Assembly (NCBI GenBank): GCA_029204225.1
Contig: CM055095.1
Coordinates: 20,203,348 to 20,267,347, forward strand
Reading direction: 5' to 3'
Origin: Diphasiastrum complanatum
Taxonomy: Eukaryota; Streptophyta; Lycopodiopsida; Lycopodiales; Lycopodiaceae
DNA: 64,000 bases
Below, in pieces: positions 4,174 to 58,560 of this stretch. The notes below the pieces were generated by a model. The model worked only from the letters and a program-made list of their open reading frames with translations. It did no database searches and had not been told where the DNA came from. Numbering within the stretch: the stretch's first letter is position 1; each line of letters begins with the position of its first letter. Position numbers and translations under genes: made by a program.

Positions 4174-4650
4174 GTGTGTGTGTGTGTGTAAGTCCAGATG
4201 TATAGAACTAGACATCTATGCATGATAAGTAGTTTCATGCTCATGGTTAACAAGCAAGCCACATGGCCCTGGCCCTTTGTTATTATGTTACCACATTACT
4301 TGATGTATTAGTTTGAACTACTCTTTAGTTTTTAATAGCAATGCACAATTTTAGAATATATGATTTTTTTAAAATCATGTCTGAACACGATGACATTTGT
4401 CTTGGGACTTTGACCTGAAAAAGATTAATCTTTTTTGGTGTTTTTTAATGGTTCTAGTTTTAGGCCAAAATCATGAATTTTTTAATAAATCTCTAGATTT
4501 TGTTTTAAAAAAAAAACCAAAAAATGCATATTCTAAATAAAGAACTACAACTTTTTTGTTGCAAACTTCATAAAACCATCATAATCACAAATGAAATAAT
4601 AATTCAAGAGAACAAACGATTTTTGAAACTCAAAATCCCATTGAAATACA
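3867..4650. other. AT-rich non-coding stretch with (TTG)n and (TG)n
   Basis: A (TTG)n run lies at about 4142-4172 and runs into (TG)n to 4189. The rest is AT-rich DNA without a convincing ORF. It is the flank beyond the 3' end of the leftward DUF7869 gene. I saw no clear inverted-repeat terminus that would mark the end of that element. Confidence 0.5.
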
Positions 4651-4657
4651 AAATAAC

Positions 4658-7600
4658 TTAAATTATATTTGCACATTCTTTTTTTCGAAGTACATTTTCT
4701 AAGGAATTTTCACTGATGCCTCTCAATTCAGAACTTGACATATTCTCAACACTCTTGTTTTCAGCTGATGAAGTGGAAGACCCGTCTTCTTCATCAGAGT
4801 CAACTGGCATGTCTTCCTCAGAATCTGCGTCTAATGGTGACAAAAAACCTTGTAAATCAGCTTTTCTCTATTGATGACGAGTGGAGGATAATGGTTTTTC
4901 AAGTAATCCAAGTCGTTCTTTCAATATAGATATTGTTGACTTTCGTAGATAATTGGTCATTGTTAATTCAAAATTAAATGCCAAAACATCTACATCCTGT
5001 AGATTAAATCGTCGACTCTTGGTTGATTTTTTGGCAATCTCTTTCTCTTGCCTTTTGGATCTACTTGCAACATTTCGAGTTTGTACCTTCCCAAAAAAGC
5101 ATTCGTTGAAGTGGTGCGCAACCAGTGGACACGTAGTACTTTTGTTTGATTGCTATTTTGAATAAAACCAAGTACTTTGGCAATCCAAAATAGATGTCTT
5201 TCATTGTTTTCTGAAGCTAGAAGTGCAACAAGGCTTCCAATTTGGATTTCATTCAAATTACCGTGCCATTTTATTTTTGCAGCTTTTACACTTTGCCTAT
5301 TCTTCCTTGAGCCCACATAAATTTCGTGTTCCTCACCTTGCACAAGTTGTAGGAAATCATTATCTCGAGGAAGATCTGAAGGTTCGACAGTCGTAGTTGA
5401 TGTTCCTAATTTATGAGGCCAATAAAATTCATCAGTTGTTGATGTATGTTTGAGATTGAGCAAACTGATTTTGTGTTCTTCGAAAAAGTCCATCCACCAA
5501 TGTTGATCAAACTCATCAAAAAAATGATAAGCTGCCGAATACTTGATTCCAAAAAATTTAACGAGACGAATGGATCAATCTCACGATGTTCTCTTTGCGC
5601 CTTTTGTTCTTCTAGCAAGGACTTCAAGGGAGACAACACAACAAGCTTGATTTGAGTCGATGTAATGTTAAGCAAAAATCGAACTCCTTCAAGAGGTAGC
5701 CACGAAACTGAATTTGAAAATAGTTTGCCCCATAATAATATAATGTCTGATTTGTTACATTTGATTTTAAACTGGTGCTGAAAGCTAATATCATTAATAT
5801 TAGCTACGCATCGCTCTATTTCGTTGGACGCCTTAACATAATCACAAAAATCATTTGTGTGTCTGATTAATGACACGTTTGGCTTTGGCACATACGATTC
5901 CTCAACAATGCTTTGAAGCACTGGTAATGAAAATGCTTTCTTGCGTCTCAACCTCTTAGAAAAGCAACTAAACATTTGATCAATTTGATCGTGGGTATGT
6001 CCTACCAACAAAAATCCTATTTTTACTTTTTTGAAAAAAAATTCCTCCACTAGCATAGACAAGTATGCCAAAACAGTTTGATTTTTATTTTCCCTAGCAG
6101 TGTTGTCAAGCTGCAAATAAATTAGTTCTAGAAGATTTTCACCAAATTCGCAAATTATCTTATGTACAGTGGTGATCGTCAAATTTGGATCATTTCGAAC
6201 ATTGGGATAATTAAAAAAGACCTTGGACTCCAAAGTGCCATTAAACACAAGTGCTCCAACGAGATGAACCTGAATAAAATCTGCCTCGTTCAAATTTTTG
6301 GGCACTCTGACAAAATGAGGCAACATTGTTTTCTTCTGATTCATGCCATCAATAACAAGTCCCAAATATTTTTGTGGACATTTCAAACATTTCTTTCGAT
6401 GTTTGGCCAACTTTTATCTTTCAACTGTTTGTTGATCTTTGTGCAGTTGAAGAGCTTTTGCAGCATCCACTGAAAATACAATGATTCACTTATTCATAAG
6501 AATAAAGATCATACCATAATGGTGTTCAAAAAGACTGCAACATAAATTTTTTCAAAACAAAAAGTACTAAAATGAAAGACAAATTTGATTAATATTTACC
6601 TTTCTCGTCAGTGGTCTTTGCAAGTTGTTTTGCAGACTTTAACAACTAGCAAGTGGAGCATACTGTCATTCGTGATTTTTTGGGAATCTTTACCAGTCCA
6701 AAATCTCTTTTCCAAATTCTAAGAAAATATGAGTAACTCAAATAGGGAACATTTTTTGTTTTTGCAAATTCTTTGTACATAAAAAATATTTCTAATTTTG
6801 TAAAATTATCCGGCAAGTGAGAATATAAGGAATTAGGCAATTTTTCTCTGTGCCTATGAAATGCTTTAGCCAAGCAGTTGCATTTAAAGCATCTGAGAAA
6901 ATAGTTCGACCATGTAAGGATCCCCGTAATGTTGGGTTTTTCTGAAGTCGTGCATGCATTCGTTGAAGCCGTGAGTTTTCGATTGCGTGAACTGCTTTGT
7001 AAGCTTTGCGACAAACCTCCAAAGCATTTAAAAAATACAAAAATGAGTTTTTGTCCGGCCTCATTGTTGCACACAAATAGTAATTTCTCTCATCCTTACT
7101 TCGTAAAAAGAATTTTGATCCTAATTCTTCAATTTCTCTGATACTCAACTTTTGCAAACAACAGGATGAGCAGCAAATAATATTTCGTACCTTTCGAATA
7201 TGAGATTTTGTAATCAACTGTTTTTTATCATTCGTTAAATTAGGTGAGGATTTCGTTAAATCGTTAAATCTCTCTTATATTTTTCTTTTTGTTTAGAATC
7301 TGATCTATAAATTAAACTTATAACACTAGTAGGTGCTTGAACTGGTTGAGAATGTGTTGGAGTTTCATGACTGAGAATTCTGGCTCCAACCTCCAAATGT
7401 TCTGGACCCTCAGAAGGCTCTAAATTTTCAACGAATATAGCCCTTTTAGATTTAACACGAAGAACATCACTTTGAGAAGGTCTTCTATGAACATGAGAAA
7501 AGCTTGAACGCCGCGGATCAACAGACTTACGTGGATCTGTTGATTTACTAGAATCAGTAGCTGAGTGAATTGAAGCTTTTGACTTATCACTCAATGATTC

Positions 7601-7858
7601 AACTTGTTCAAAAGAACAATGTTCTAGTTGTGTCGAGCCTGTATCTGAAGAGGAAGACGAGGTCGAAAGATTTGATACAAGCTGACTTACAGGCGTCATT
7701 TCTTGAATAGTACTTGCTTGAGAAATTTCAAATGATGAACGGGTAAATGATGACGATGCCACATCATTTACCAAAACAAGTTCAGATTCAGGAGTGGCTT
7801 CATAAAAAAAGGCTTTCATTGGGAATGTCAGATGAAGATGTTGCACTTGTTGCAACAT
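4658..7858 (-). pseudogene. DUF7869-domain protein gene (transposase-like), frame-damaged
   Basis: Read leftward. An N-terminal Ser/Thr-rich segment (7858-7256) leads to a Cys-rich stretch (ICCSSCC) and a segment with VCRKAYKAVHAIE, SLHGRT and AWLKHF (7217-6792). A PKKSRMTVCSTC block ends that part (to 6646), and the DUF7869 core lies at 6410-5406. The core shows GLVIDGMNQKK, IYLQLDNTARENKNQ and LVGHTHDQIDQMFSCFS. Spaced acidic residues (IDG, LDN, and the D of HTHDQID) suggest an RNase-H-fold nuclease, which is my inference. A later piece (5493-4990) has a BAH/Tudor-like phrase (GSLVALLAS, FWIAKVLG, VLRVHWL), and an acidic Ser-rich tail ends near 4658. Introns probably separate some pieces, for example near 6475-6600. 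Frames break near 7255 (8-bp duplication), near 6830 and near 4880, and a stop follows VCSTC, so this copy looks dead. It diverges from the ParB-like gene at 9262. Confidence 0.65.
7254..7270 (-). other. 8-bp tandem duplication that shifts the DUF7869 frame
   Basis: On the minus strand the octamer atttaacg occurs twice in tandem. Removing one copy would bring the frame ending at 7256 into line with the downstream frame that carries the Cys-rich block. This is a simple replication-slip lesion and supports treating the two ORF pieces as one former gene. Confidence 0.55.
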
Positions 7859-7934
7859 ATTGAGTTACAACTACTGGAATAGAAGAGGTAGAACTACTTG
7901 ATATTGTAACCTCAAAAAAATTTTTAACTATGTA

Positions 7935-8507
7935 CTTATGCTAAGCATAGAATCGTTCAAATAGTTAACACCACACTAAATGTGCCCCTCAAACATAACT
8001 GCAATCTATGCTGGTCATAGAACAAATAAAAACCTATGCGAACCTCAATAGACGTATACAGAAAAACCAACTAAATGCAAATAAGCAACAAGCCTAAAAA
8101 GTAGCTGGTTAATAAAAATTTTCGACGGCTACCATGCCTTGAATACTGTTTGGCAGCATTCGTAGGGTTAGGGTTAGGTTTAGGATTAGGTTTAGGGTTA
8201 GGGTTAGGTTTGGACTATCCCGGCTAATACTCATGGTCGGCGTGGGGTGAGGTGAGTCGCGGGAACTCGGTCCCGAAGTAAGCTGGAGGACTGGCGTGAG
8301 ACGAGGGTATTGAAAAAAAAAATTATTTAAGGACCATAGTCCAAGCATAACTCGCCTCATTTGCGAATTCAGAAGCCCACATGCTGCCAGAGCAATCGCT
8401 GCGACCAAGTCACGGCATTCTATAAAATTTCGCATACGTTCTCGCTTCCAGATTTCTTGATGATAAGATTATTGTCATTTTTTAACTTTGCTCTATGCTT
8501 AGCATGG
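7935..8507. promoter_or_regulatory. Outlying palindrome copies upstream of the DUF7869 gene
   Basis: Copies of the CTATGCTNAGCATAG palindrome lie at 7935-7951 (core TATGCTAAGCATA), 8006-8020 (degenerate, ctatgctggtcatag) and 8493-8507 (ctatgcttagcatgg). All are in the non-coding region between the two divergent genes. They match the sites of the main array at 8580-9031. Confidence 0.6.
8163..8213 (+). repeat. Interstitial telomere-like repeat
   Basis: About 50 bp of intermingled TTAGGG and TTTAGGG units on the plus strand (tagggttagggttaggttta and on). TTTAGGG is the common plant telomere repeat, and TTAGGG occurs in several plant lineages. The tract lies in the intergenic region between the DUF7869 gene and the palindrome array. 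It may be a repaired break, an insertion into telomeric DNA, or a telo-box-like promoter element. Confidence 0.8.
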
Positions 8508-8575
8508 GGGGGTATTAAATTCTTGCATTAAAAAATATTCATATTTTAATTTGTATTCATCTTCTTAGAACATGG
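8214..8575. other. GC-richer intergenic segment
   Basis: A block at 8225-8300 with higher GC than its surroundings follows the telomere-like tract, then sequence containing ttctataaaatttcgc near 8420. That could be a TATA box for either divergent gene, but no start site can be fixed. I compared the block mentally with 5S rRNA and tRNA patterns and saw no match. Confidence 0.3.
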
Positions 8576-8579
8576 GTAA

Positions 8580-9031
8580 CCTATGCTCAGCATAGGTGCC
8601 TGAACCAATCCTCTCCTCTAACCTATGTTGAGCATAGGCTGTGTTCGGGTCCTTAGTAACATCCTATGCTCAGCATAGGATTTTGGCGTTATTTCTTCAA
8701 TTCTAACCACATTTCGACCTATGCTGAGCATAGATTGCATCTCTGGTCCTGTTCCAACCTATGCTCAGCATAGGTTAGCAAGCAAATTGCAAAGACATCC
8801 TATGATCAACATAAGTCGTTACGCGCACGAGTAACGACCTATGCTGAGCATAGGATGTCTTCACAATTTGCTTGCTAACCTATGCTGAGCATAGGTTGGA
8901 ACAGGACCAGAGATGCAACCTATGCTTAGCATAGGTCGAAACGTGTTTAGAATTGAAAAAATAATGTCGGAATCCTATGTTGAGCATAGGATGTTACTAA
9001 GGACCCGAACACAACCTATGCTCAGCATAGG
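8580..9031. repeat. Array of eleven 17-bp palindromes (CCTATGCTNAGCATAGG)
   Basis: Copies start at 8580, 8622, 8663, 8718, 8758, 8799, 8838, 8879, 8919, 8974 and 9015. Seven match the full consensus CCTATGCTNAGCATAGG, three carry one change (8622, 8718, 8974), and the copy at 8799 is degenerate (cctatgatcaacataag). Start-to-start spacing is 42, 41, 55, 40, 41, 39, 41, 40, 55 and 41 bp, so most sites lie about four helical turns apart on one face of the DNA. The layout resembles clustered protein-binding sites such as iterons or parS arrays. That function is inferred, not shown. The array sits between a DUF7869 gene and a ParB-like/methyltransferase-like gene. Confidence 0.9.
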
Positions 9032-9033
9032 TC
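8620..9033. repeat. Giant inverted repeat (about 203-bp arms, 8-bp loop)
   Basis: The left arm (about 8620-8822) is the reverse complement of the right arm (about 8831-9033), with an 8-base centre (gcgcacga, 8823-8830) flanked by gtcgttac and gtaacgac. The unique DNA between the 17-bp palindromes also matches between the arms: for example gcatctctggtcctgttcca at the left pairs with tggaacaggaccagagatgc at the right. So the fold is a true long palindrome and not just repeated small ones. Scattered mismatches show some age. It could extrude a cruciform or transcribe into a long hairpin RNA. The first palindrome copy (8580) lies outside the arms. Confidence 0.9.
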
Positions 9034-9654
9034 GCTACTCGTATTTTCTTGTTTTACAACGCTTTGTCGTAGAAAAGTGATCCATTTGAGATGTTTTAGT
9101 AAGAAAATATGTTTAATCTGTAGTTTTGTTTTTTAAATTTTTTTTCACAAAATTGGCTTGTTTTATTAAAGTTTTCAGTATTTTCATTAAGATAGCGTTT
9201 TAAATTTTCCTAAAAAGTCTTTTTTCTTGCAGATTTTCAATTGTCTTTGATAATTTTCAAAATGTCGAGGATTTCTTTTAAGCTTTCGAAAAAACCTCAA
9301 GATACCTTGAAAGATGAGAAAAAATTCATGTACTACTTCACCAAAGGGGTCAACAACACAAAGCTTTCGGAGCTTTTTATTCATTTAGCTGAGAAGCCTG
9401 GCAGGGGAGACTCACAATTCAAAGTTCAAGGAAGATTGCTTGCTGATCAACCAGATGAGGATCAGGAAGAAGGTTTTGTGAATAACTTGTAAAGGAGATG
9501 GATAAGTCTCATTCTATTTTCATTCTGAACGAGACTATGATAAAGATCTAACTTTGCCAGGACGAGGCCATCAAAGCTTATTTTGATAAAGCTCTAGTTA
9601 CTTTGGTGAGTAATTATAAAACATATTTTTAATCATGTTTGTATACATTTGTTT

Positions 9655-9668
9655 CATGCTTAGCATAG
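9655..9668. promoter_or_regulatory. Palindrome copy in the first intron of the ParB-like gene
   Basis: catgcttagcatag, a 14-base copy of the array palindrome. It sits in the likely intron between 9606 (gtgagt donor) and about 9755. Confidence 0.55.
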
Positions 9669-11420
9669 TTGTTACTGAATATAAAATCATTTAAACTTTT
9701 AGATTTAAGCTTTTACTCATTATGTTTTAAATTTGATTTTTGTTTCTGCCGAAAGCATGAAGCAATGCTTAAAAATGGATTTAGCTGCTATTGTTGAGGG
9801 AACAGAGCTGGTCTATTCATTACGGAGGTCAAAAGGTATATCCATTAGACCTCGCAAGCCTGCTTCTACCACTGCTCATGTCACAAAACCGGCCTCTGAA
9901 AATGTTGAGGATATAACTATAGTTGTCCCTCATCCCAAAAAGAAAAGATCTCATAATATTTCTGAGTCTTCGCCCACTAGAGCTAACTCACGCCCAAAGA
10001 CCATGGCTACACATCGCCATAAGTCCATACCTTCTGTTGAAAGCAAAAAAGCCGCCACCGAACCACCTCTGTCGCTACCTGGTGCATCCATCCGCCCATT
10101 AACAAACAGCTCTGAACTTGTCAAATTAAGAGAGGATATCCACAAAACAAAAAAAAATAAAAGAAACAACTTTGATTTTAGACATAAATCAATGTGATAG
10201 GCCACTTGTAGACCCAATAATAGGAGACATGCCAATGAAAGTTAGAGAGCCTAATGAAACACATGTACATAATTTAAAAATAAAATTTAAAGGTCATACA
10301 TAGGCCATAGTTACTCCCTTTGTTGTTTTGGTTGATCCCAACGAATGCAACAATGATGCAAATTTTGATTTTTCTTTATTAGATTCATATCATTTTTTTG
10401 TTCTTGGGGAGATACACAGCTTATAAGCTCGAAAACAATTATCTCAAGAGTATCCCCATATCCCAAGCTTTCGAACTGTGAGTGCCATTGCATTTGCTGG
10501 TTTGATAGTGGAAGAAGCAAAATTATTGGCTTGGGACCACAATATTGACCAGGACTACCGGATGAAGATGACCGTGATACAAAGAATTCGTTTTTTTTTC
10601 ACAAAGAATACATGAGAGTCTCCAAAGCAGGAGATGTGATTTAACTTGAGTTAAAAGCACTATGTGCTCAAGAGACAGGCCTACCTTTTGATTCAAAAAA
10701 TCCTACGCAGAGCCTTACAAAATACGATAATTTTTTTCAGCTTGCTTTTCGTAGTGGCCAGGAAATTTGTTTGGCTATGCTCGTCATGGAATGTTCTGGT
10801 CATAATATATGTTATAATCCTTTTAAATTATTTTTATCAAACTAAAATTTTGAACTCAATTTTAATATTCGTTAACTTCTTTATCAATTAAATTTATTTT
10901 TTTTTATTTCAGGTGTGGGCCCTTGTTGATAAATTTTTTTTATAAATGAGAAACTTTTCAAATAAAAGGCCAACCTGCTCAGGGTGCCTCAAAGTCCAAA
11001 AAAAAATTGTGAGCACTCAAACTTTGAAGCCAATCCCTACTAAAATGGGAATATCAGAGTGGAAGAATATGCAAGGGATTAGCTCTTCAGAGCTAATAAT
11101 AAGTGTTCTTTCGAGAGTTGTCGATGGTCAACTTTCTCTGGCAGAAATGGGAAAAGAATTTTAGAGGTAATAGTCATAATTCAAATATTTATTTTTATGT
11201 TATATTTTTTAATAAAGTGATTTTCATAATTTGGTTGAATTTTTAACAATTATAATTTTTAAATGCAGGCACAAATTATTTATGAAAGTTTAAGAAGCCC
11301 TTGTGACAGGGTTAAATTGTCAAGATTTCAATGAGTGCCAAAGGCTTTATCCTCTGAGCAGCCGAAATGAATCCTTGAGTCCACTTTTGATTTTGTTTAA
11401 AGACATGGTATTTATTTCAC

Positions 11421-11571
11421 CCATGCTTAGCATAGGTGCTTATTAATTGTTTCTTTTCTATATTCTATATCTCCTATGCTAAGCATAGTTTTTTCTTTAT
11501 TTAATTTTTTCTTTTTATAAGTTAAGTCTCCTGTTCTATTTTATATTTTTTGTCTCCCATGCTAAGCATAG
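11421..11571. promoter_or_regulatory. Three palindrome copies in one intron
   Basis: Copies lie at 11421-11436 (ccatgcttagcatagg), 11473-11489 (cctatgctaagcatagt) and 11557-11571 (ccatgctaagcatag). All are inside the probable intron bounded by a gtattt donor near 11407 and a ttttcag acceptor near 11586 of the ParB/methyltransferase-like gene. Here the centre base is A or T, whereas C or G dominates in the main array. Confidence 0.65.
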
Positions 11572-12289
11572 CTTTTTCCTTTTCAGTCTCCCGAAGACCA
11601 AAAAAAACAAAGTCCTTCCAGAGCAATTCAAGAGACATATTCTGAAGGCAAAAGCAGAAAAAAGGGACAGGGAGATATTGGCACGAGGTGAGACCATTGC
11701 GGAGGAGGATCCATTAGAGACCTACCTTCCCAAAAGTGTCGATGATCAACCATGCTTTTACTCTGTTGAGGAGGGTGATTGAAGAGAAATTTCAAAAAAA
11801 ATTAAGAAAAAGACCTTATACACTCTACATCGCCGATATACCATATGGATTTCAAATGAAGGAATCATTAAATGATGATACTCCTTTCAAATTCACTGAA
11901 ATCCATAGTTTTATGCAGGGCTTTCTTGAAGTCACAACTTCTCCAATTTGGAGACTTGTTATTTTTCATTCTTCTTGGCAATCAGCATCAGTACAGAAAG
12001 TTCTACTAACTTTCTGTATTGCGAGAATAGAGAATGTTGTGTGGTAAGTTCTTAAGTTCCTGAATTATCAATTCGTATTTTAATTCATAATTTTATTTTA
12101 AATTTTTTATTTTAAGATTAAAATTTTAAATTTATTTTACTTGTAATATTTCATGTCATGTACAAGCCCAATGTCAGGAACTCGGGAGGAGCTCAACTTT
12201 GCAATGAAATAGAATACATAACCATCGGTTATTATTCTTTGGATGGCAAACTATTAGCAACTGTGCTAACACAGAGAAAAAAAATAAAA

Positions 12290-12825
12290 AAATAATAATA
12301 AAACTCCGTGGCATGTGTTTTGTAAGACCACGTATGAGCATCTGTCAATAAACTTCAAGCCATGGCATGTGTTTTGTAAGTCCATGAGTAGAAGCTTAAA
12401 TAATAATAAAATAGCTTGAACTTAGAATTAGAACTTACTTAGAAAACTTAAGATTAGAAATATTTTATCTTAAGTTTTCCTAAGTTAAGAAATTTGAAGT
12501 TCTAAATCCTAAGTTAGAAGTTCTTGAAAGGCTAGAAATAGATTAGTCCCATAAGTTGGTAGACACTTATGGAAGACCCTTCTTGCCATAAAAGGAGAGG
12601 TATTTGTATTGTAACCAACACTTTTGAGATTAAGCCATCTTGCTCTCTATTTTGGAGAATTATCATTCTATGTCATTTGTGTTCCCTTTGGGAAGGTGCA
12701 TAGCTTGAGGGAAGGTGCTCGGGTCTCCTCTTGCCTCCTTTTCATCGGTTTATTGTGGCATGTTCTTTATTGCTTATTTACCTAATATTAGCTGCAATAT
12801 CATTTTATTACCCTTTGGGTGTTAA
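12290..12825 (+). mobile_element. Possible solo LTR or short insertion in the methyltransferase-like gene
   Basis: The methyltransferase-like frame fades after about 12260. The next 500 bp differ in character: a repeated phrase tggcatgtgttttgtaag (about 12308 and 12364), then sequence resembling an LTR promoter and leader (ccataaaaggagaggta, tgtaaccaacacttttgaga, ctctctattttgg). The frame of an acidic C-terminal tail resumes after a ttttgtcag acceptor near 12851. No target-site duplication or clear TG...CA ends were identified, so the limits are approximate. Confidence 0.35.
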
Positions 12826-13104
12826 GTAATGAAATCTCTTTCAATTTTGTCAGATGAATTATCTGAGGTGGGAAAGGGTTTGGACAACGAGGATACAATA
12901 ATTCTCTTGTCCAAGGAACCTCAGCCTCCTGCTAACGGAAAAGTAGGCGACACAGGAGAATTTGCTGATGTCTTGGTTCAAGATTACAATGTAATAACTG
13001 TAGTCGAGGAAATTGTAGAAGAGGTGCCACTTGATAGTACAGTGGCTACTCAAGAAAAAGCAAAAGAAAAAGATGTAAATGACATCGATGATTTTTGGGA
13101 ATAG

Positions 13105-14297
13105 AAAATTCTCTTTTGTTTTAAAGAATAATTGTGTTTATTTCTTTTTATGTATTGTGTTTTGAATTTTTTTTTATTGATTTAATATTTTTAAATTTGT
13201 TTTTTAACAATTTGAAATTTAGAATTTGAGATATTTTAAAAATTTTAACATTGATAATTATTACCAAAAATTAAAATTGTAACGATTTGTCAAGTTTACA
13301 ATATTTTAATTTTAGATGTGTTTTTATAATATTTTTTGTAAAAAAGATATTGTTAAAAATTATAAGAAATGAAAAAAAATTAGATTTTTTTCGAAGTGAT
13401 TTAAATATTTTCACAAATAGTTTAATCTCGATTATTGTAAAGTAATTTTATTTGCGTTTATTTAATGTTTAAATATTTAATAAACTAACGTGGGTATAAG
13501 AAAAGATTTTCAAAATTTAAAATTTTAAAAAATATTGATTCAAATTTTTAACATAATTTAAAAACTTTTGTTTCTAGTAAGCAAAAAATATTTTTTAGAT
13601 ATTTTAGTGGTTGTGTATCTAATGATTTTATTATGAATAGTATTATTATTTAATATAAGTTAATTTTAAGTTATTTATAAAAATCTATTGACCAAATTTT
13701 TGTAGCTTAAATTATTTTCTTGCAAAATACAACATTTTTTTAATGTTACAATATATTTATTTGAAGCATTTTAAATTTGGATACTTTTTAAAAAAATTAA
13801 TAAATTTAAAAAAAATTGGGTCTTCAATTCATTTCTCTTTTCTTTGGTCATCATATTTGTTTTGTCAAGCTATTGTAAAATCATAAGCTCTGTTGTTGAT
13901 CATGTGGAGGATGTCCAAAAGGCGAGCAAGAAAGAGCGAGCGCGAGCGAGCAGTTTTTGGCCAACATAAAAAAAATGTAGAAACTATGACAACGAGAAAT
14001 GTCAAGACCTTTTAATAACTTGATTCGAATATAAAACCATAAAAATGGATCATGAATTATCTATAAAGTCTATAATTGCTTGTCTTAAACACTCAATAAG
14101 ATCTTACAAGTAGTTACAATGATATTAGCAGTCACACATACCAATTAAAAATAAATTGAGTAATCAACTCATAAGTTCATAAGAGAAGACATAGATTCAT
14201 GAGATACTTGATTTCTACATTATTAATGATGCTATATATGCTCTCGTACTAAGCCAAAGATCAGGTTTCGCTGCCAGTCATGCCACATTAATCATAT
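13105..14297. other. Very AT-rich non-coding stretch
   Basis: Long T- and A-runs and no ORF of note. A GC-richer spot at 13918-13953 (gcgagcaagaaagagcgagcgcgagcgagc) is a low-complexity purine-rich run. No terminal inverted repeat matching the far side of the 4.6-13.1 kb module was seen. Confidence 0.5.
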
Positions 14298-16728: not shown

Positions 16729-18667
16729 CTAACTTGGCAAGTCTAATGTACATATATCTACAACTCCAAGAGCATCTCTTAACTTGAAAAATGAATCTTT
16801 AGCCAAAGGTTTGGTCAAGATATCAGCTATGCACTCGGATGAAGGCACATGATGAAGTTGAACCTCCTTGGATTGCACCTTCTCCCTCACAAAGTGATCA
16901 ACTATCTCAATATGCTTTGTTCTAGCATGGAAGATCGGATTGGTAGCAATTTGTTGAGAAGCTTGATTGTCACAATATATGCAAGGGACCTTCTTGGCCT
17001 TTAGCACTTGAAGCTCCACAAAAAGTCTTCTTAGCCATAGGAGTTCTTTGGTTGTTGAAGTCAATGCCTTGTACTCTCGGCTTCACAAGAGGAAAGAGAA
17101 ATTGTATCTTGCTTTTTGGAAAGCCAAGATATCACTCCTCCACAAAGAAAAGTGACAAATGCACTTATGGATCTTCTATCCATCTTATCTCCTACAAAAT
17201 TTGAATCCGAAAATGCTCTCAAGTACAAGTTAGATCCTTGATAGAGAATGCCAAAAAATCTAGTAGAAGAGACATATCTAAGCACTCTCATGGCACTTTT
17301 CCAATGATGCATCAAGGGACCTTGCATATATTGACTTAACTTGCTTACACTATAACTCAAATCTCGTCTAATGATTGTCAAATAGATTAAGGAGCCTATT
17401 AGCTTCCCAAAGAGTGTGATGTCCTCAAAGGATTCTTTATCACAATCATTAGTAACTTTACAAGCTTGCTCCATAGGGGTGTCAATCCCTTTACAATCTT
17501 TCATGCCAAACATTCCAAGAATGGAGGTAGCATACTTTGATTGACTTATAAAAGTAAAATCACTACCTCTAGTAACTTCTATTCCAAGTATGAACATAAG
17601 AAGTCCTAGACCTACCATCTTGAATTCACTAGACAAGGAAACTTTAACATTTCTTATGCCTTCACCATTATTTCCTGTCAATATGATATCATCAACATAA
17701 AGTACTAAAATGATGATCTTTCCATCATTACATTTGATGTACAAAGAAAGCTCATAAGAACTAATCACAAAGCCAAGAGAGTAGAGAAAATCATGCAACC
17801 TAGAGTACCAAGCTCTAGGTGCTTGCTTCAAGCCATATAGGCTCTTCTTTAAGTGGCAAACCTTTTCCTCCTCACCATCCTTGATGAAACCCTCGAGTTG
17901 CAACATGTATATTTCCTCCTCCAAGTAGCCATTCAAAAAGCATTTGTCACATACATTTGATAGAGATTCCACTTAAATAAAGAAACAATACAAATGATCA
18001 ATCTAATGGGTACAAGTTTTGCTACAAGAGCTAATGTTTCTTCATAATCTATGCCTTTAGTTTGAAGAAACCCCTTAGCAACCAATCTAGCTTTGTACTT
18101 ACTTATAGATCCATCTCGATTGTACTTTAATCTATAGATCCACTTACATGCAAGTGGCTTCTTCCCATATGGAAGGTGTACAAGATTCCAAGTTTGATTA
18201 TCTATCAAAGCATCAAACTCTACTTGCATTGCATCTCTCCAAACTTGTGATCTACTTGCATCTTCATAACATGATGGCTCATCAAGCATTGTGGTTAGAA
18301 AGGAGTAGGAGGTAGAAGGAGATGTGTCTTCCCTTTGCTTCCCTTTCTCAAAGTATGTGAGCCTTGGAGGCTCGGCCTTGATCCTTGTGGATCTTCTCAG
18401 CTCCTTTGGCACTTGATTTTGATCTTCCAAAAGATCATTTTCAAGAGGCTCCTCCTTGGGTGTTGCAAGATCTTCATCACCTAAGAGATTAGATGCATTT
18501 GGAGACAACTTGTAACCTTGAGATTCATCAACCAAGACATCCTTGCTAGCTTTTACTTTCTTTGAAAAAGGATAAAATATCCTATATCCTTTGCTATTTT
18601 CACTATAGCCTACAAATATTCCTTTGAAGTAAGTTGCATCGAATGTGGACATAACATATACATCCAA
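16729..18667 (-). pseudogene. Copia reverse transcriptase and RNase H
   Basis: Read leftward. The first piece (18667-17933) carries the end of the integrase/linker region (GIFVGYSENSKGYRIF) and the start of copia RT (WNLVHLPYGKKPLACKWIY, KARLVAKGF). The second (17972-17061) carries HLKKSLYGLKQAPRAWY, the catalytic YVDDIILTG box and the RNase H start (FSDSNFVGDKMDRRSISAF, SLSSCEAES). The last (17064-16729) carries the RNase H end (IYCDNQASQQIATNPIFHARTKHI, then ADILTKPL). The YVDD box is intact. Frames change near 17960 and 17062, so no single polyprotein can be read. Confidence 0.88.
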
Positions 18668-19519
18668 ATACTTTAAAATCTTTTACATTGGGTTTATTGC
18701 CAAACAAAGCTTGAATTGGTGAGATCCCACCAATAGCACTACTAGGAAGCCTATTACATAAGTAATTAGCACAAGTTATGGCCTCCCCCCAAAAAGTGAT
18801 GGGTAGAGATGCATCAAGTCTTAAAGACTTTGCACATTCACAAACACTCCTATTTTTCCTCTCGGCCACCCCATTTTGTTGTGGGGTGTAAGGACAAGTG
18901 AGTTCTCTCTTAATGCCATTGATCTCACAAAAGTCTCTCATTTGTTGGAGATATACTCTCCTCCATCATCACATCTTAGAACTTTAATGCAAGAACTAAG
19001 TTGCTTTTCCACTAGAGACTTAAACTTTAGAAAAGCTTCATATACAAGGCTTTTATTAGGCAATGATTCAATCCAAATTTATCTAGTACAATCATCAATA
19101 AAAGTCACATACATTAAAGCTACTCCATTACTTTCATGAGAAAAAGTATGTACATCCGAATGGATAAGATCTAAAGGTGAGGTATATCTTGTTAAAGATC
19201 TCTTGTAGGAAGTCTTGTGTGACTTTGCAAGGCCACATGCCTCACACACTTTGCCACACTTCTTGAAAGCTTTTGATAGGCCGAGAGCTAGCTCCTTTGA
19301 TGCCATGGATTCCATTGATTGAAGATTAGGATGGCCCAATCTTTTGTGCCAAAGCTCCACTTGAGTCAACTCCTCCCTAACCATATTCACACTTTCAATA
19401 GCCACATTAGCATCCAACTTGAAAAGCCTTCCTTGCTTAATGCCACTAGCTATGCACTTATCATTTTTCAAGATGGAACACACTCCATTCTTAAAATTTA
19501 CATCTAGTCCATTGTCCAT
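18603..19519 (-). pseudogene. Copia GAG-pre-integrase and integrase
   Basis: The leftward frame 19519-19079 carries the zinc-binding pre-integrase (LWHKRLGHPN and CEACGLAKSHK) and the first catalytic Asp region (DLIHSDV, then FIDDCTR). A broken stretch at 19079-18941 lost the middle of the domain. Frame 18941-18603 resumes with INGIKRELTCPYTPQQNGVAERKNR, which holds the final catalytic Glu, and FWGEAITCANYLCNRLP. Stops and a frame break separate the pieces. It would have inserted the cDNA into chromosomes. Confidence 0.85.
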
Positions 19520-20570
19520 TAATCAACACTAAGCAAGTTTTTTGTAATGGATGGAACATACAAAACATTATCAAGATCTATCCTTTTAGATGATCCTAAG
19601 CATAATGGAATAGATCCTATGCCATCTATCTTGTATTCTTGATCACTAGCAGTGTAGATTGATTTCTTAGAATCATTACAAGAAAGTAGATAACAAAAAT
19701 AATGCTTGTTGAATGACATGTGGGAACTAGCCCCACTACCAATCCACCATGTCTCTTGGCTTGATGTTGGTGTAGATGCTACCATCAAGGATGTGTTGAA
19801 GCCATCCTCTTCCTCCTCCCCTTGTCCAAGATTGCCTTGATCTTCATTCCCTTGTGCATTCCTCTTCTTATAGCATTCGGAAGCAAAGTGTCCTTTCTTC
19901 CCACAAAAGAGAAACTTCAACTTTGCTTTGTTCTTTTGCTTCCCTTTGGAGGTAGATCCTCCATCCTTTGCCTCGGCTTCCTTGCCTTGGATCTTCTTGA
20001 AAGGATGAGTCTTCTTCTTGCCTTTAGATGTGAAGTTTGCTTTCTCATCACCATTATGTAGTGATAAGGACCCCATTCTTGTTTTGAGGTGTAGAATCCT
20101 ACTCTCCTGGGCCACAAGAACATTATGCAATTTTTCAATCGATGGAAGTTGGTCTTGAATAGCAAAATTGAACTAGATTAGAGAACTCATCACGTAATCC
20201 TATCCAAAATTACCTGTACTAGTTCATTATCTTGGATCTTTTTCCCTATAGATCCCAGTTCTTTATTCAAGGATTTTATCTTTGGGACATACTCTTGTCC
20301 ATTTTCTCCACTTCCCCTCATGCTTTACAAGATCAAGTTTCTTAGCATAAGCACTCTTGAAGTGTTGTTGGATTCATAAATGTTCTTTAGTGAATCCCGA
20401 GCCTCTTTTGATGTGGTACAAGAAGCCACCTCCTTCAAAAGGTCATCGCTTACATTTAACTTCAAGCAATGTAGGGCTAATCTAACCTTCTTCTTGTACT
20501 TTAGTTGTTCTTGGGGAGCTTGAGGCTCTTCCTCAACTCCTAAGACAATATCAAAGAGATCATGAACCAC
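19519..20570 (-). pseudogene. Copia gag and protease
   Basis: The leftward piece 20570-20325 matches the gag UBN2 region (LVVHDLFDIV-type start, LHCLKLNVSDDLLKEV, SLKNIYESNNTSRVLMLRN). The piece 20130-19519 carries a basic linker, a degenerate zinc knuckle (FLFCGKKGHFASEC, in which the first Cys of CX2CX4HX4C is Phe) and the protease region WWIGSGASSHMS, where the usual catalytic Asp of DSG is Gly. Both changes suggest an inactive copy. A related gag phrase (EKLHSVLVAEECRMLHAKSRM) occurs in the rightward copia element at 49.5 kb. Confidence 0.85.
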
Positions 20571-44029: not shown

Positions 44030-45272
44030 CTAAATTGGGTCAGCAAAGAACAACTCTTCGTAGTACCATCGTAGACGACCACCGTTTACGACAATGTCTA
44101 GGAGTGTCCCGTCAAGTGTTTGTAACTGGACTACACCATTAGGAAATAGGGTCATCTAAATGTAGATTTTTATTGTGCAGGTGATGGTCATGCCAGGCTT
44201 TTTGGCGTCGTTTGTTAACTAATTGTGCGTGATAAGATATTAGTCTTGTCTCGCATAACTGTGCTAACGTAAATAGCCTGGTTTTGACTTGTTGTTCGAT
44301 TGAAGCTTTTCCACAGAGATCTGTTGAAAAAGACTCTGTAACTCTTACTGAAGGTACTAAGAATTCTATGGGCATTACTGCTTCTTGACCGTATACTAAG
44401 TGGAAAGGGGTTACCCACCTAGTGGCTTTCTTTGGGGTGGTGCGGTAAGCCCAAATAGCTGAGAAAAGTTTTGTTTCCCAATCAGAGTGACTGGTTTCAA
44501 CTATCTTGGTTAGAATTTTACAGATCGTCTTGTTAGTTGATTCAACCTAGCCATTACACCTAGGATAGTACGGTGTACTTTTTCTGTGAACGACAAGGTA
44601 ATGGCATAGGAGATTATCAATGACAGCATTTAAAAAATGCGTGTCGCGATCACTAACAAGGTCAATGGGATAGCCAAAACGGGTAATAATGTTTTCGTAA
44701 AGAAAACGTGCAACTGTTTTTGCGTTGGCGTCCTTCATTGCTCGGGCCTCTACCCACTTATTGGCGTAATCTGTGGCTATGAGGATGTATCGAGCTTGGG
44801 TATGTTTCACTGCTGGACTGATGGGTCCAACAAAGTCAATCTTCCACTTATGGAAGGCTTCGCCTTCTATAATGGGAGTCAATGGTGTGAAGTCTACTTT
44901 GGTATTTTTCTTTGCTCTTTGACAGACATCACATGCTTTAATGACAACAAATGTGTCTTTAAACAAAGATGGCCACCACAATCCTGCTTGAAGGATAATC
45001 TTTGTTGTGGCTTCAGCAGAAAAGTGGCCACCTCCAATGCCCTCATGAGCCTGGGATATTATCGGTCGTATCTCAAATTCATAGGCACATCGTCGAATAA
45101 TGTCGTCAACGCCCCTTTTGTAGAGTTGTCTCACAATTAACTGAAAGGGTGCTGCTTTTATAAAAAAATTTCTTTTTTTCATTGTACTCAGGCCTTCTTT
45201 TAGTCGGCCTGTTGTGAGGAACTGAGTGATCTCCTCAGCCCATAGGGTGTGGCATCGATCTGAAAAAGGCAT
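44030..45272 (-). pseudogene. Gypsy integrase
   Basis: The leftward frame 45272-44547 carries the H2C2 zinc domain (HEGIGGGHFSAEATTKIILQ, CDVCQRAK), the first catalytic Asp (WKIDFVGPI), the ATDYANKWVEA segment and the second catalytic region (VSDRDTHFLNAV). The YYPRCNG box is followed by a stop exactly where the catalytic Glu segment (VESTN) continues. The C-terminal part runs on in broken frames (AYRTTPKKATRW, VYGQEAVMPIEFLVPSVRV) to LRWYYEELFFADPI and a stop at 44030-44032, where it resembles a complete gypsy integrase end. The element is a recognisable but inactive copy. Confidence 0.85.
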
Positions 45273-46624
45273 GCATCAAGAAGATCATCGTTGACTGGTG
45301 CAGTTGCTTTTTCAGCACTTGGTAGTCTGGAAAGGTGATCCGCCATGAAATGTTGGGACCCTTTCCGAACGACTATACGGAAATTAAATTCCTCCAAAAT
45401 TAGTAGCCATCGAGCTATTCGTCCCGTCTTACAGGACTTATTAATGATATATATGAGTGCTTGACGGTCTGTGTAGAAAGCAAAGGTCTGGCCTAATAAA
45501 TAATGTTGTAGTTGTTGTACCAAATAGACCATTTCCAATGCTTCTCTCTCGGTAGTGGTATAGTTTACTTCAACAGGCACCAGTTGCCTGCTTAAGAAAC
45601 GTATGGGAAAATCCTTGCCATACTCGTCTGGTTGTGCAAGAAGACCCCCAATGGCATACTTACTTGCGTCAGTATGCACATGGAATTCTTTCATGTAATC
45701 TGGCGAGCGGAGTATGGGAGCCGTTGTGAGTGCTGTCTTCAACTCCTCAAAGGCCTTAATTTGTTCTTTGGTCCAGCGAGGATCTACCACAACTAAATAA
45801 ACGAGACGTGCCTTGCCGGCATAATCGATTATAAAGATGCGATAGTAGTTGGTATGACCGAGGAAGACATATACTTCCTTCACTGTTGCAGGTAGGGGCA
45901 TGTCCACGATAACGTTGATTTTTGACGGGTCGGTAGAAATACCATCCTTTGATATTATATGTCTGAGTACAACCCCGTGGGTGACCCATATTTGGCATTT
46001 ATCAGGGTTTAGTGAGATGCCGAACCTACGACAGCGAATGAAGATTTTCTCCAAGGCGTCTAGGTGCGTAGCAGCGGAAGAATGTACACCTAGCTCGTCG
46101 AGATAAATCTCCACGACCCGATGTAACAGATCTTGAAAGGCCAGTTGCATGACCCGTTGGAATGTTGAGGGGGCGTTACATAAGCCAAAAGGCATAACAT
46201 TATAAGCGTAAACGCCACTCTCTGTGGCAAAAGCCATTTTATGTTTATCTTCAGGGGCTATTTGAACAAGGAAATAGCCGCTGAACCCATCCAAGAAGCT
46301 GAAAGCTTCATCTCCTGCCATTTCCTCTAATATTTGGGTTGTTAGGGGCAAGGGAAAATGGTCTTTCTTTGTAACCGCATTAAGGTTCTTGCGGTCAACA
46401 CATATACGAAACTTGCCGTTTTTCTTGGGTACAACCACAATGGGTGATACCCAATCAGTATGGTGGACTTCATAAATGAAGCCATCATTCAACAATTTCT
46501 TAATATCTTCATCAATCTTCTCACGATAGACTGGGTTGTTGTGGTAAGGTTTAGCCCTAACGGGCTCAGCATTGTCTTCTAGAGGAATTCGATGTACTAC
46601 TATTTCAGGGGGAATTCCTTTCAT
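45200..46624 (-). pseudogene. Gypsy reverse transcriptase and RNase H
   Basis: This is a single open stretch of 474 codons read leftward, beginning KGIPPEIVVHRIPLE. RT motifs in order are WVSPIVVVPKKNGKFRICVD, FSFLDGFSGY, FGLCNAPSTFQRVM and the catalytic box, which reads IYLDELGVHS, so the second Asp of YxDD is Glu. RNase H follows (FHVHTDASKYAIGGLLAQ, TTEREALEMVYLVQQLQHYL, YTDRQALIYI), then a chain towards the integrase. Upstream, in another frame (46.6-47.0 kb), DVFAW and related phrases precede it. The Asp-to-Glu change probably reduces or abolishes polymerase activity, although the ORF is otherwise open. Confidence 0.9.
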
Positions 46625-47080
46625 CTCGATATAATTCCATGCAAATACATCCCTGTATTTGCGTAATAAAGTCTATAGGTCAGACAGTTGGGTTGATGAC
46701 AAATGTGCACCAACATGAACTATTCGATCTATGTCCTCGTCAGGATCTTTAAGGTTTAGTGGAATTGTCTTAGCGGGTCCTTCAAAGGAATTGGAACTTG
46801 GTGTAGGTTCCTGATGTGGTTGCGGTAACTGGATAACAACGTCATCCAGTGTAAAGTTTTTGAGTTTCTATGGAAGATCGAAAGGTGGGTTTACAAAATG
46901 TTCTGGGACTTTAGGAATCATTTGAGGTGATTCTTTATCAGACGTGGAAGCTTTGTCGGAGTGTTTAATGTCTGTCCCCTCTGACAAGGGCTTGATTGGC
47001 TGTTTAAGCTTCGCACGCATCTGTATTTGTCACTCGGTTAATTTTGTAGCAATATTGTTATTTTTTTGTAACTGAGGTTT

Positions 47081-48322
47081 TTATGGTTTTTGAATGGGTG
47101 GTGTTGTGGCCTCACTTACCATATCATCGTCGATTGTATCCCAGACTTCATCGGGATACAAGTCCCAAGTATATACTTTGGTTTTGGGCCTATATGCTTG
47201 TGTGTTTGGTACTTTGGATGTTAGTTGGACATGAGCCAACGGTCCTGGTGACTTGATCTCCTTAGAAATGACTTTGGACGGATAACGTTGAGCATCTAGA
47301 TAGAGGAGTACATGATCATCCGTCATTTCGACATCATCCATGGAAAGAATACCTTCTTCCGAAACATGGGTAGTAGAGACACTAGGTTCTCCTGGGTACC
47401 AAGCTATAGGAATGGGGTCTATCATCATAAGGGGAATGATGGGTGTGTCAATGTCCGTAGAAGATGGAAGAATATCCACATCTTCTGCAGCCGTTTCGAT
47501 ACGACATCGATTGGAATCTGCACAGTCCACAGTAGCTAGTGCATGACCCCAATTGATTATGTCTGTGGTTCGTGTATAGTGGCCTTTTGGTTGGATCGGG
47601 ACACTATCTGATTCGTCATATGTTGTAGCTGACCAATCATCGTATACCTTGGCGGGCTTGACATGGCCATTTGAGTCAACCGTGACTCGTTTATTGTGGT
47701 TGCCAATGGTAATTTTGTTGTTTTTCCAGTCTTGGACAACACCTGCCATCTGGAGCCAGGGTGTATCAAGAAGGAGTTTATATGTATTGGCATCTTCTAG
47801 TAGGTCTAAGATGACACAATCAATGATAAACTTGACACCTGTTATTCAAACTTTTATATTTGATAAATGACCAACAGGGTCGGTAACTCGTTGATCAGCC
47901 ATACGAAGTTTATATCGTGGTTGATCGAGGGTATTGAAGCCCCGTGACTTTGCCAATGACAAAGCCATTATGTTGACGCCTGATCCGCTATCGAGGATAG
48001 CAGATACTGCGGGATAATCTTTATAGGACAAGGGTAGTGTGATGATATTCCCCTTAGCAACACCTATATTCATCAAATTCATTGAAATCTGAGGAATTTC
48101 AGGAATCGTTTCTGGTTTTCGCTGTTCATCGGGAATAGGAGGCAGCTGAAAACTACGATGGATATAACGTTGAAGTTCGGTGAAGGATTTGATAGCACTA
48201 TGGAATGGCATTGTGAGTTGGACTTGCAGGAGGTCAGAAAATACTTCAAGTCCCTGGAAGGATTGCTCCTTTTTGGGGATATGAGCTAATAACGGACTGT
48301 TTGTATGTTTTTCCTCTCGCAA
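47081..48322 (-). pseudogene. Gypsy aspartic protease and linker
   Basis: The leftward frame 48322-47846 carries the retroviral-type protease (VSAILDSGSGVNIMALSLAK, YKLRMADQRVTDPVGHL). A stop separates it from frame 47749-47081, an acidic linker towards RT (TDIINWGHALATVDCADSNRC). The same linker type occurs in the gypsy fragment at 14.3-15.1 kb. The catalytic DSG is intact here. Confidence 0.8.
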
Positions 48323-48373
48323 AAATTCATCTCAAAATTTATTGTATTGTCTTTGTTCCACTTTTGGGTCTGG

Positions 48374-49549
48374 CTAATCTTTTGGTACTGTGGAGGCCGT
48401 CAAATGGCTTCCATGTGGGTCAGCTGATTGTCCATGGTTTTGCTGCTGTTCTTGTTGTTGGCGTTGTGCTCTAGTAAGAACTCTAACAGGTTCGGATGTG
48501 ATATGACGTGCTGGAAGGATCCTGTTAGGTTGTTTAGGACAGTCTTTGAAGTTGTGTTTGCGAACACAGTCGGGACATTCTGCATGGTATTGGTTTTTAA
48601 CTTTACAGTCAGCCATGAAATGTCCTGTTTCGCCACAGATAAAGCAACGGTTGCTCATGGGTCCGGTGGCGATAGCGTAACCATCTTGGATGGCTAGCTG
48701 AGTTGGGTTTTCTTGTGGTGTGGAATACTCAGCTTGTTTGCACGAGCATGAGTTGTCGGTTTGATACTGGTGATGGCTAGATGATGGAATTGATGTATCA
48801 GGATGATATGATTGACCGTAGGAGTTTTCTACCAGGTGTGTGTGTCCAGACTCTCGAGGATGTCTATTTTTTTGTGCTCCTAGATCCTGTTGTCCTCGTG
48901 GTGGTGGTCCTAAGAGTGCCAGCTGTTGTTGAGGTTGATGTCTAGGTTGTCTGGGCAACTCTTGTATATGGATCTGGTTGTTTCGTGGTGGATAGGACGT
49001 GTGTTGTTGCTGTGAAACAAATGGTTGTTGAGGAGGTTGATAATGTCCTCCTGATTGGTTGTGAGGCTAATTCCTCGGGTTATAATAGCAATAAAGGGAG
49101 GTATGCCCCATAAAGTCGCAGATTTCACATTTGATCAAGCAGGTATCTGGGACCAGTTGGTATGAAGGGCACTCATTGCCAGTGTGTGTACCTCGGCAGT
49201 GAGGGCACCACGTGTTCTCTCGTCTATGATGGCCAGTGGGTAACTGACCTAGCATCAAACTTTGGATAGAATTAAGAGTGTTTTGAAACTCTGTTGTGAG
49301 TTTCTCCATCTGTTGTTGGTGTTGCTGATTAAGCAACTCCATCTGTGTTTTCCATAACTGTTCTCGTGTTTCATCGTTTGGTCGAGCTTCTTGGAGAACA
49401 CGATGTGCTCTCCGTTCTCGTGGTTCCTCAACATATGAGCCCTTCTCTTCTTCTCGAATGGCATTAGACATGGCTTGTTTCAATGATGTATATTCATCAT
49501 TGGAACGAAGGTCATCCAAGACACTTTGCCAACTATAGAAAAACTTCAC
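48374..49549 (-). pseudogene. Gypsy gag with zinc knuckles, 5' truncated
   Basis: The leftward frame 49549-49067 (FFYSWQSVLDDLRSNDEYTS, a coiled Gln/Glu-rich stretch, then WCPHCRGTHTGNECPSYQ) and frame 48958-48374 (CFICGETGHFMADC, then CPDCVRKHNFKDCP) give a gag end with several Cys/His knuckles. The N-terminal capsid part is missing: the sequence is interrupted at about 49,530 by copia DNA of opposite orientation. A Gln-rich spacer lies between knuckles. Confidence 0.78.
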
Positions 49550-50642
49550 AGTGTATTAGTGGCTGAAGAGTGTAGGATGCTCCATGCAAAATCTAGGATG
49601 AGTTCCTTGTCTTTGCAGGATGGTGATGAGAAAGCCAATTTCTCATTCAAGGGCAAAAAGAAGACCAATGGAAAGAAGAAGCATCCAAAGGAGGCCAAAG
49701 ATCATTACTATGTTGTTGCAGGAAGACACGCGAAGGAACGAAGTTGCTAGTTCCTCAGCTGATTCTCACGCCTTGTACACCAACAATAGCACGACAAAGC
49801 AGTAGAAGAAGAAAGGCCCGAAGCAACTAAAGCCAAACCAGAAACCAACTTAGCACAAGGAACAGTCGAATTTGCAGACAAAGAAGAAGCTATTCTGCAG
49901 ATACTGCAAACGAAACAACCACGAAATACAAGACTACTGCATACTCCAAGCGAAGAACAACAACAAAGGGCGGTCGAATCAAGTGGCGAATGCAGCTGCA
50001 GAAGCTCCACAGCCTATTCAAAAAATGGATCATGATGCCTTCATGACCAATTATCAAGGAGCATCTGGCGATAGTTCTTGGCTCCTAGATTTCGGAGCCA
50101 CTCAGCACATGACTAGCCTCATTGGCTGTTTTGAGTCCTATACACCTTACAGTACTCAGAAATTAGTTCACCTTGGTGACAATAGCACACAAGCTATTAA
50201 AGGTGAAGGCACTGTAAAATTATGCTTTGCAAATGATCAGTCTAAGCTACTCTCTGAAGTCTTGTATGTACCAAAGTTATTTACGAATCTGTTCTCTGTA
50301 AGCAGAATCACAGATCTAGGACACAAAGTAGAATTCGAATGTGATCAGTTTAAAGTAGTTGATAGGACAGGCAAGATCCTAGCACTCGGAAAGAGTCATG
50401 GATACTTGTATAAATTAAGTCATTGCTTTTCTGCCTCTAGTCAGACTCTCAGTACTTCAATTCATTCAAATAAAGGTTTACTTTGGCATTATAGACTAGG
50501 TCATTCAAATCATGTTGTTGTACAACAAATGTCTAGACAATCTATTGTTCTTGATCTCGACTATCCTCGCAAAAAAGTTGAGTTATCTGTTTGTCAAGAC
50601 TGTCTAGTTGGTAAACAAACTAGGAAAGCAGCATGTTGCTAG
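49527..50642 (+). pseudogene. Copia gag, protease and pre-integrase
   Basis: The rightward gag tail is followed by a zinc-knuckle-like CRYCKRNNHEIQDYC (49914 on) with an extra residue before the last Cys. The protease region is SSWLLDFGATQHMT, in which the usual DSG box reads DFG. The pre-integrase is LLWHYRLGHSNHVVVQQMSR with CQDCLVGKQTRKAACC. An in-frame stop at 49748-49750 separates the gag and protease parts. The altered protease box points to an inactive copy. Confidence 0.8.
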
Positions 50643-51632
50643 AGGATTGCTAGATGTTGTACATTCAGATATTTGTGGCCCGATGAAAAATCCTTTGTTG
50701 AAGGATGCCAAGTATTTTATAACCTTTATTGACGAATTCTCCAAAAGAACGATGGTGTATTTCATAAAGAAGAAATCAGAAGCCTTCAACTACTTCAAAA
50801 GGAGCGTGCAGAAAAGGAGACTGAAAGGATGATCAAGGCCCTAAGGTCAGACAACGGTGGAGAATATATCTCTGTCAAGTTTAAGGAGTACTGCCAACGC
50901 CAAGGCATTGAACAACAATTCATCACTCCTTACAGTCCTCAGTCTAATGGCTTAGCTGAGAGGAAGAACCGTACTTTGGTCGAATCTACTAAGTGTATGC
51001 TATTGCATGCATCGTTGCCCAAGAGATTCTGGGCTGAAGCTGTCTCCACTGCAGCTTACGTCCAAAATAGATGTTCAACCAAGGCCCTCTCAGACAAGAC
51101 ACCCCACGAGGTGTGGACAGGCTCTAAGCCTTCTTTGAAGAACCTAAGAGTGTTCGGGTGCATTGCCTACGCGTAGATCCCAAAAGACACAAGGAAGAAA
51201 TTGGACTTCCAAAGTCTCAAGACCATCCTGATCGGATATACTTTGTCTGATAACACCTACAAGTTGTACGATCCTGATACCCAACAAATCTTGTATAGCC
51301 GAGATACAGTCTTTATCGAGGATCAGTTTGTCGACCTCAAAGACAAGGATATTACTCAAGAAGGACCTACATCTCCTACCATTGACACGACAAACCGAGC
51401 TTCTGGCTCAGGCGTGTCTATTGTTGACCCACTTCGAGACAACAAATCAGACAAAGATGTTGTTGCTACCCAACAACAAGTCCCAGGAGCAGTTCGTCAG
51501 TTGAATCCTCCCCGAAGATCAAGCCGAGTGCGCACACAGCCCACAAGGTATATTCCTGAGTCTGCCTGTCTCTTAATGCATGAACCGACGACAATCGAAA
51601 AGGCACTTATCCAACCAGACTCTGATCTCTAG
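50608..51632 (+). pseudogene. Copia integrase and C-terminal linker
   Basis: Frame 50608-50832 has DVVHSDICGPMKNPLLKD and YFITFIDEFSKRTMVYFIKK (first catalytic Asp). Frame 50829-51176 has ALRSDNGGEYISVKFKEYC and FITPYSPQSNGLAERKNRTL (second Asp and final Glu). Frame 51201-51632 has the linker (IGYTLSDNTYKLYDPDTQQI, RRSSRVRTQPTRYIPES). A stop after CIAYA and a frame overlap at 50829 break the reading frame. All three catalytic residues (D, D, E) are visible. Confidence 0.82.
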
Positions 51633-57180: not shown

Positions 57181-57475
57181 ATCACAAAAATCGAGTTTTT
57201 TTAGCTTGTTAGTGGTAGTTAGTGTGGATTAGAGTTAGTGGGGGGTGGATTAGTGTTATAACTGTAGATTAGAACACCCCTTGCTTTAAATTTTTTTTTT
57301 TAAAAAAAATCAGAAAACATGAAAAATTTGTTTTTGGCGGGAAAATAGGTGAGAAAAACATCTTAGAGGCAATAAATTTTTACTGCTTTGAAACTAATCC
57401 TTGCCCCTTTGACAGTACCTTCTAGACACTGTTTAGAACCTATGTATAAACAACCACAAAAAAATAGCCATCAAA

Positions 57476-58230: not shown

Positions 58231-58560
58231 ATATTTTTTTGGTTTTTTGAGATTTGCTCTGAATTAACCTTCACTGAGATTTTTATAGTTAGATCTAATC
58301 CCGATCTGGCTTCTGTGGAATTTTTGTGATAATCCAATGGACAGATCTAGAAAGTTCTATGAAAAAGTGCTGAAAAGTGCTCAAAAATTGAGGTTTTTCA
58401 AGATCCTGCAGAAATTGTCCATCAACAACCCTCTCAGACCTCATAATAGCTAGATCTTGTCTATATCCAGATTCTCTGGGAAGGGCATAGGTTAGATGCA
58501 CTCCGATCTGAAGAAATCTTAGAAAAACCACAAAAAACCGCTAAAAATGGGCAAAAATAC

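Follow-up and report, generated by a model that had tools for sequence, protein, structure and literature searches.

The examined parts of PMC12477816, a paper that cites Iyer 2011 and Petroll 2025, describe the Ectocarpus transposon Sola1-1_Ec32 as encoding a protein with a ParB-like domain and an N4-cytosine/N6-adenine (N4C/N6A) DNA methyltransferase, and suggest that this algal ParB-methyltransferase binds and modifies its own transposon. In Arabidopsis, according to the consulted parts of Hosaka 2017 (PMC5735166), the VANC proteins of VANDAL transposons bind motif arrays in the intergenic and intron regions of their own family; the motifs differ between related families and the copy number of the arrays varies. 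Here, a stretch of 64,000 nt of the Diphasiastrum complanatum genome (GCA_029204225.1, CM055095.1:20,203,348-20,267,347, forward strand; hereafter the window) was analysed, which contains a decayed DNA transposon with an array of palindromes between a DUF7869 transposase gene and a ParB-like/DNA methyltransferase gene. Clustered palindromes of similar size are present in the bacterial ParB-parS, Noc-NBS and KorB-operator systems.

As in Sola1-1_Ec32, the ParB-like/methyltransferase gene and the transposase gene are on opposite strands. The element differs from Sola1-1_Ec32 in its land-plant genome, its DUF7869 transposase, its length of 9.5 kb (21.5 kb in Sola1-1_Ec32) and the candidate binding sites seen; the examined parts of PMC12477816 make no mention of a palindromic array. 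With the VANC system it shares family-specific motif arrays in non-coding transposon parts, since two families with different palindromes were found here. However, the VANC21 motif YAGTATTAY is a 9-mer in one orientation, whereas the present sites are N-centred palindromes of 17-19 bp, and a loss of DNA methylation has been demonstrated for VANC (both from the consulted parts of PMC5735166). The DNA-binding part is predicted to have the fold of the bacterial ParB, Noc and KorB proteins; unlike in the bacterial ParB systems, it is located in a eukaryotic transposon and fused to a DNA methyltransferase. Among the titles and abstract openings of the open-access papers listed, a set outside of which most subscription papers lie, no report of target arrays for transposon ParB-methyltransferases was found.

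The palindromes are probably bound, as operator- or parS-like sites, by the ParB-like domain of the transposon's own methyltransferase, and would serve self-recognition, promoter control or epigenetic marking. Their positions, given with the basis of each assignment, are as follows (ORF, open reading frame).

7865..9257, no strand: intergenic region separating the two divergently oriented genes (limits deduced from ORFs)
7935..7951, no strand: outlying palindrome site (site search and copy comparison)
8492..8508, no strand: outlying palindrome site (site search and copy comparison)
8580..9031, no strand: array of 11 palindromes ACCTATGCTNAGCATAGGT (site search)
8621..8825, plus strand: left arm of the array's inverted duplication, five sites (repeat search)
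8828..9032, minus strand: right arm of the array's inverted duplication, five sites (repeat search)
11420..11572, no strand: three palindrome sites (11420, 11473 and 11556) in the probable ParB-methyltransferase intron (intron inferred from reading frames)

The site search confirmed the original prediction of eleven palindromes with eight gaps of 39-42 bp and two of 55 bp. CCTATGCTNAGCATAGG occurs at 8580-9031 in seven exact copies, three with one mismatch and one with three (at 8799), and the gaps are, in order, 42, 41, 55, 40, 41, 39, 41, 40, 55 and 41 bp. At up to three mismatches, 16 matches were counted in the whole window, compared with a mean of 0.11 and a maximum of 1 in 100 shuffles; weak outlying sites with four mismatches are located at 8005 and 9653. 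In the whole assembly (1.74 Gb, 5176 contigs), 10,282 near-matches with up to two mismatches were counted, versus 47 for the reversed word. Ten of the eleven array sites are contained in an inverted repeat whose 205-bp arms are separated by 2 bp. Because the array was inversely duplicated, the two 55-bp gaps mirror each other and stand for one event, not two; the predicted order of the spacing is real, but its regularity owes much to the duplication. The further claim that most sites face one side of the helix was not borne out: helix phasing of the whole array is poor, with a vector strength of 0.09 at 10.5 bp/turn and a best value of 0.64, near 10.3 bp/turn, among the periods tried. Within the same intergenic region a degenerate plant-telomere-like TTTAGGG/TAGGGT tract is present at 8163-8208, and telomere-like words were likewise observed in copies L037, L039, L040, L042 and L044.

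An array of this kind could also have arisen with no bound protein, as a fold-back or tandem-repeat by-product of the inverted duplication or as a satellite-like repeat that multiplied together with the element. This explanation draws on the 91% complementarity of the arms (8621-8825/8828-9032) and on the make-up of the array, which differs from copy to copy; against it stand the conservation of the sites, the recurrence at matching spacings of single sites beyond the duplication in several other copies, and the same kind of array in a family without convincing DNA similarity (see below). We regard it as quite improbable. For conservation, the right arm was aligned in nine copies, the window included. 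Mean column identity was 0.929 for the half-sites (80 columns), 0.838 for the spacers (108) and 0.881 for the flank up to the start codon (226), while the five central N columns formed the lowest class with 0.600. The half-site contrast was greatest in register among the 17 mask offsets tried, and in a six-copy alignment the means were 0.921 (sites), 0.801 (spacers) and 0.873 (flank). The half-sites are on average more conserved than the spacers (P = 0.0007) and the flank (P = 0.011), P values that serve as a guide only because columns and copies are not independent. Such a pattern would be expected from two-fold half-site recognition with an unread centre.

A second, diverged family was found in the same genome. 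The search with P0073 gave at least 81 matches (78 of 2650 first-look candidates scored), and the upstream stretches of four of them, all diverged copies (L069, L070, L071 and L072), were examined. The palindrome of this family is CTCGATGCANTGCATCGAG, with sites mostly 31 bp apart, and the core ATGCWNWGCAT is common to both family palindromes. L071 holds eleven sites within six mismatches of CTCGATGCANTGCATCGAG, with gaps of 31, 31, 31, 31, 32, 31, 53, 30, 31 and 32 bp, and L070 holds five sites in a row with gaps of 31, 31, 32 and 31 bp and one stray match; near the gene, the two are 86% identical over 242 bp. Since the consensus had come from the arrays themselves, N-centred dyads were counted blind (seven of nine pairs, 500 shuffles). 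The whole L071 stretch contained 8 dyads versus 1.88 in shuffles and its array 7 versus 0.62, values that none of the 500 shuffles reached. The opposite strand of L070 encodes the N-terminal part of the transposase (30%, E = 3e-23), and at the DNA level L070 shows no convincing resemblance to the window element. In L070, the layout of transposase gene, palindrome array and ParB-methyltransferase gene is thus kept while the palindrome has changed; in the 1-kb stretch of L071 no transposase match was found, only the array and the ParB side. The protein comparison of each of the two families was with P0073. The L071 array (sites 287-620 of the reverse complement) is well phased, unlike the window array, with a vector strength of 0.97 at 10.4 bp/turn.

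The gene on the right of the array is broken, and its parts in the window are the following.

9258..13104, plus strand: ParB-like/DNA methyltransferase gene of several exons, broken by stops and frameshifts (limits taken from ORFs)
10136..10761, plus strand: part coding for the ParB-like domain (tblastn with P0073, 53%, E = 5e-45; with P0101, 41%, E = 2e-30)
11718..12251, plus strand: reading frames whose counterparts in other copies are followed by the methylase match (ADIPYG, motif-IV-like by reading)
12252..12827, no strand: foreign segment of 576 bp replacing about 290 bp (comparison of copies)

In the AlphaFold 2 (AF2) model of the relative P0101, residues ~250-540 are predicted to form a ParB N-terminal fold followed by a helix-turn-helix (HTH) domain. 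The VIA-align ranks 1-13 of this model are all of ParB type, some alignments having a large root-mean-square deviation, and Foldseek gave an E value of 6e-7 to Noc. The CTP-binding (cytidine triphosphate) box of the ParB family is GxxRxxA-like, and YFVIGGSHSAEAR, conserved in alignment A2, resembles it. For the methyltransferase domain, PF01555 was matched by the L037 piece (E = 2.1e-8, passing the curated cut-off) and by P0101 (E = 7.8e-19), and by the L042 piece only at E = 0.066; the 11718-12251 part of the window has no Pfam match. The roughly 290 bp displaced at 12252-12827 are present in copies L037, L038, L042 and L044. The methyltransferase gene of the window copy is broken and its catalytic motifs are not intact. 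On the strength of the P0101 model, the dimeric HTH protein predicted beside the array would be the natural candidate binder.

The limits of the element and the transposase gene were assigned as listed below.

4384..13857, no strand: DNA transposon copy of about 9.5 kb, decayed (ends common to other genomic copies)
4384..4394, plus strand: left terminal inverted repeat AACACGATGAC (comparison of copies)
13847..13857, minus strand: right terminal inverted repeat, AATATGATGAC in the window copy (comparison of copies)
4990..7864, minus strand: transposase gene pieces, ORFs 4990-5574, 5406-6413, 6646-7274 and 7256-7864 (gene limits inferred)
5406..6413, minus strand: DUF7869 domain ORF of 335 amino acids with a predicted RNase H-like fold (PF25273, E = 7.7e-49)

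The limits derive from 12 genomic copies, most of them partial or rearranged, whose homology to the window is bounded by 4384 and about 13857; in L045 it extends another 24 bp to the left. Of 30 loci around DUF7869 matches, 19 (the window copy included) carry the left end AACACGATGAC, with 16 different flanks, and the other 11 do not. The right end is the inverted counterpart of the left and reads AACATGATGAC in copies L037, L038 and L042. The Sola1 superfamily is marked by a 4-bp target-site duplication; among the six copies with both ends, it is exact in two (TTAA and CTGT), agrees at three of four bases in two and is absent from two, one of which is the window copy. By tblastn, the relatives P0016, P0005, P0001 and P0004 cover about 4745-6873. 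The structure model of the DUF7869 part matches retroviral integrases and transposases, which points to the RNase H-like fold of DDE/D transposases, and the motifs IDGMD, LQLDN and GHTHDxID, conserved in the transposase alignment, are candidates for the three catalytic acidic residues.

Many transposases bind repeated sites, and in the window as well as in L070 the transposase gene has the array on its upstream side. The DUF7869 transposase of the element could therefore be what binds the palindromes, as clustered internal sites for the assembly of a transposition complex or for autoregulation of the promoter. We consider this unlikely: three sites are located in the probable intron of the ParB gene, and N-centred palindromes would suit a dimeric HTH protein, which is predicted to be encoded next to them. 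Moreover, the window copy has no site with up to three mismatches in its outermost 3.5 kb or so on the left, nor in its outermost 2.2 kb or so on the right. As the sites are far from both element ends, subterminal transposase sites, one of three options named in the original prediction of clustered protein-binding sites, fit poorly; clustered protein-binding sites as such are still the best-supported reading, and a parS-like group is the best match among the three options.

Several observations weigh against the assignment to the ParB-like domain. In the upstream stretches of L069 and L072, neither an array nor a dyad excess was found, so that only two of the four stretches carry an array; other insertions may explain this. 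The match count in the second family is partly circular, its consensus having been read from its own arrays. The sub-region of L070 was picked after the array had been seen, and its three dyads compare with 0.38 in shuffles, 4 of 500 of which reach three; at eight of nine pairs, the whole L070 stretch has no clear excess (1 versus 0.33). The ParB fold was predicted on the relative P0101 and not on the broken gene of the window, the methyltransferase half of the P0101 model is of low confidence, and a Pfam ParB match was obtained in only 1 of 24 relatives, at E = 0.05. The window copy lacks the stretch matching PF01555, which in L037 is wholly held by the roughly 290 bp replaced at 12252-12827, and has DIPY instead of DPPY as its motif IV. 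Finally, among the exact genomic matches listed, 12 clusters on contig C1 (1.6-22.8 Mb) were compared with the element, with the sites masked. Nine match it beyond the sites, in some cases along a short stretch only (126 bp in L066), which agrees with the expectation that the clusters lie beside DUF7869 or ParB-like genes, but three do not (L001/L057, L064 and L065), so that some arrays exist without element genes. All three contain 28-bp gaps.

These three clusters, one of them with an ORF about 1 kb away that by reading resembles a carotenoid cleavage dioxygenase, would agree with recognition by a host factor, the array being a captured host transcription-factor or replication-related site. 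Within one genome, however, the palindrome differs between the element families while the layout is kept, and since a single host factor would not predict family-specific palindromes, this counts against such an origin, which we hold to be improbable. The dioxygenase-like ORF is in L057 (C1:1603101-1613100), where an array of the same palindrome (sites 4916-5242, gaps mostly 27-28 bp and 41-42 bp) is located downstream of it; the 10-kb stretch gave no tblastn match to 15 element-type proteins.

With the ParB-like domain as the binder, a protein dimer would read two half-sites of 8-9 bp around an unread central base, and the many sites in the divergent promoter region, together with some in the intron, would load many protein molecules per copy. 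The loaded protein could regulate the transposase gene and its own gene and would bring the attached N6-adenine/N4-cytosine methyltransferase to the element DNA, where methylation would mark element copies as self, perhaps opposing host silencing. Binding of the palindromes by the ParB-methyltransferase, methylation by this protein and an effect of the marking on silencing are steps that we infer. A more far-reaching version appears doubtful: a working eukaryotic ParB-parS-like system, in which a CTP-dependent ParB-methyltransferase would load at the family-specific array, spread along the element and lay an N6-methyladenine/N4-methylcytosine self-mark that counters silencing, rival families being separated by their palindromes.

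The arrays give the self-modification suggested for the algal protein a concrete target, namely a family-specific palindrome cluster between two genes. If the proposed binding is true, the transposon can recognise and mark its own copies, a further route beside Arabidopsis VANC by which plant transposons handle silencing; maize TnpA is another such route. A bacterial chromosome-partitioning fold and methylation other than 5-methylcytosine would then enter land-plant epigenetics. Additionally, palindrome/protein pairs that vary from family to family might find use as orthogonal DNA-binding tools.

Elsewhere in the window, a tandem array with a 151-bp unit in about five copies is located at 57460-58237, and ORFs resembling remnants of long terminal repeat (LTR) retrotransposon gag-pol, a label given by reading, are present at 17061-20130, 44547-48958 and 49872-51632.
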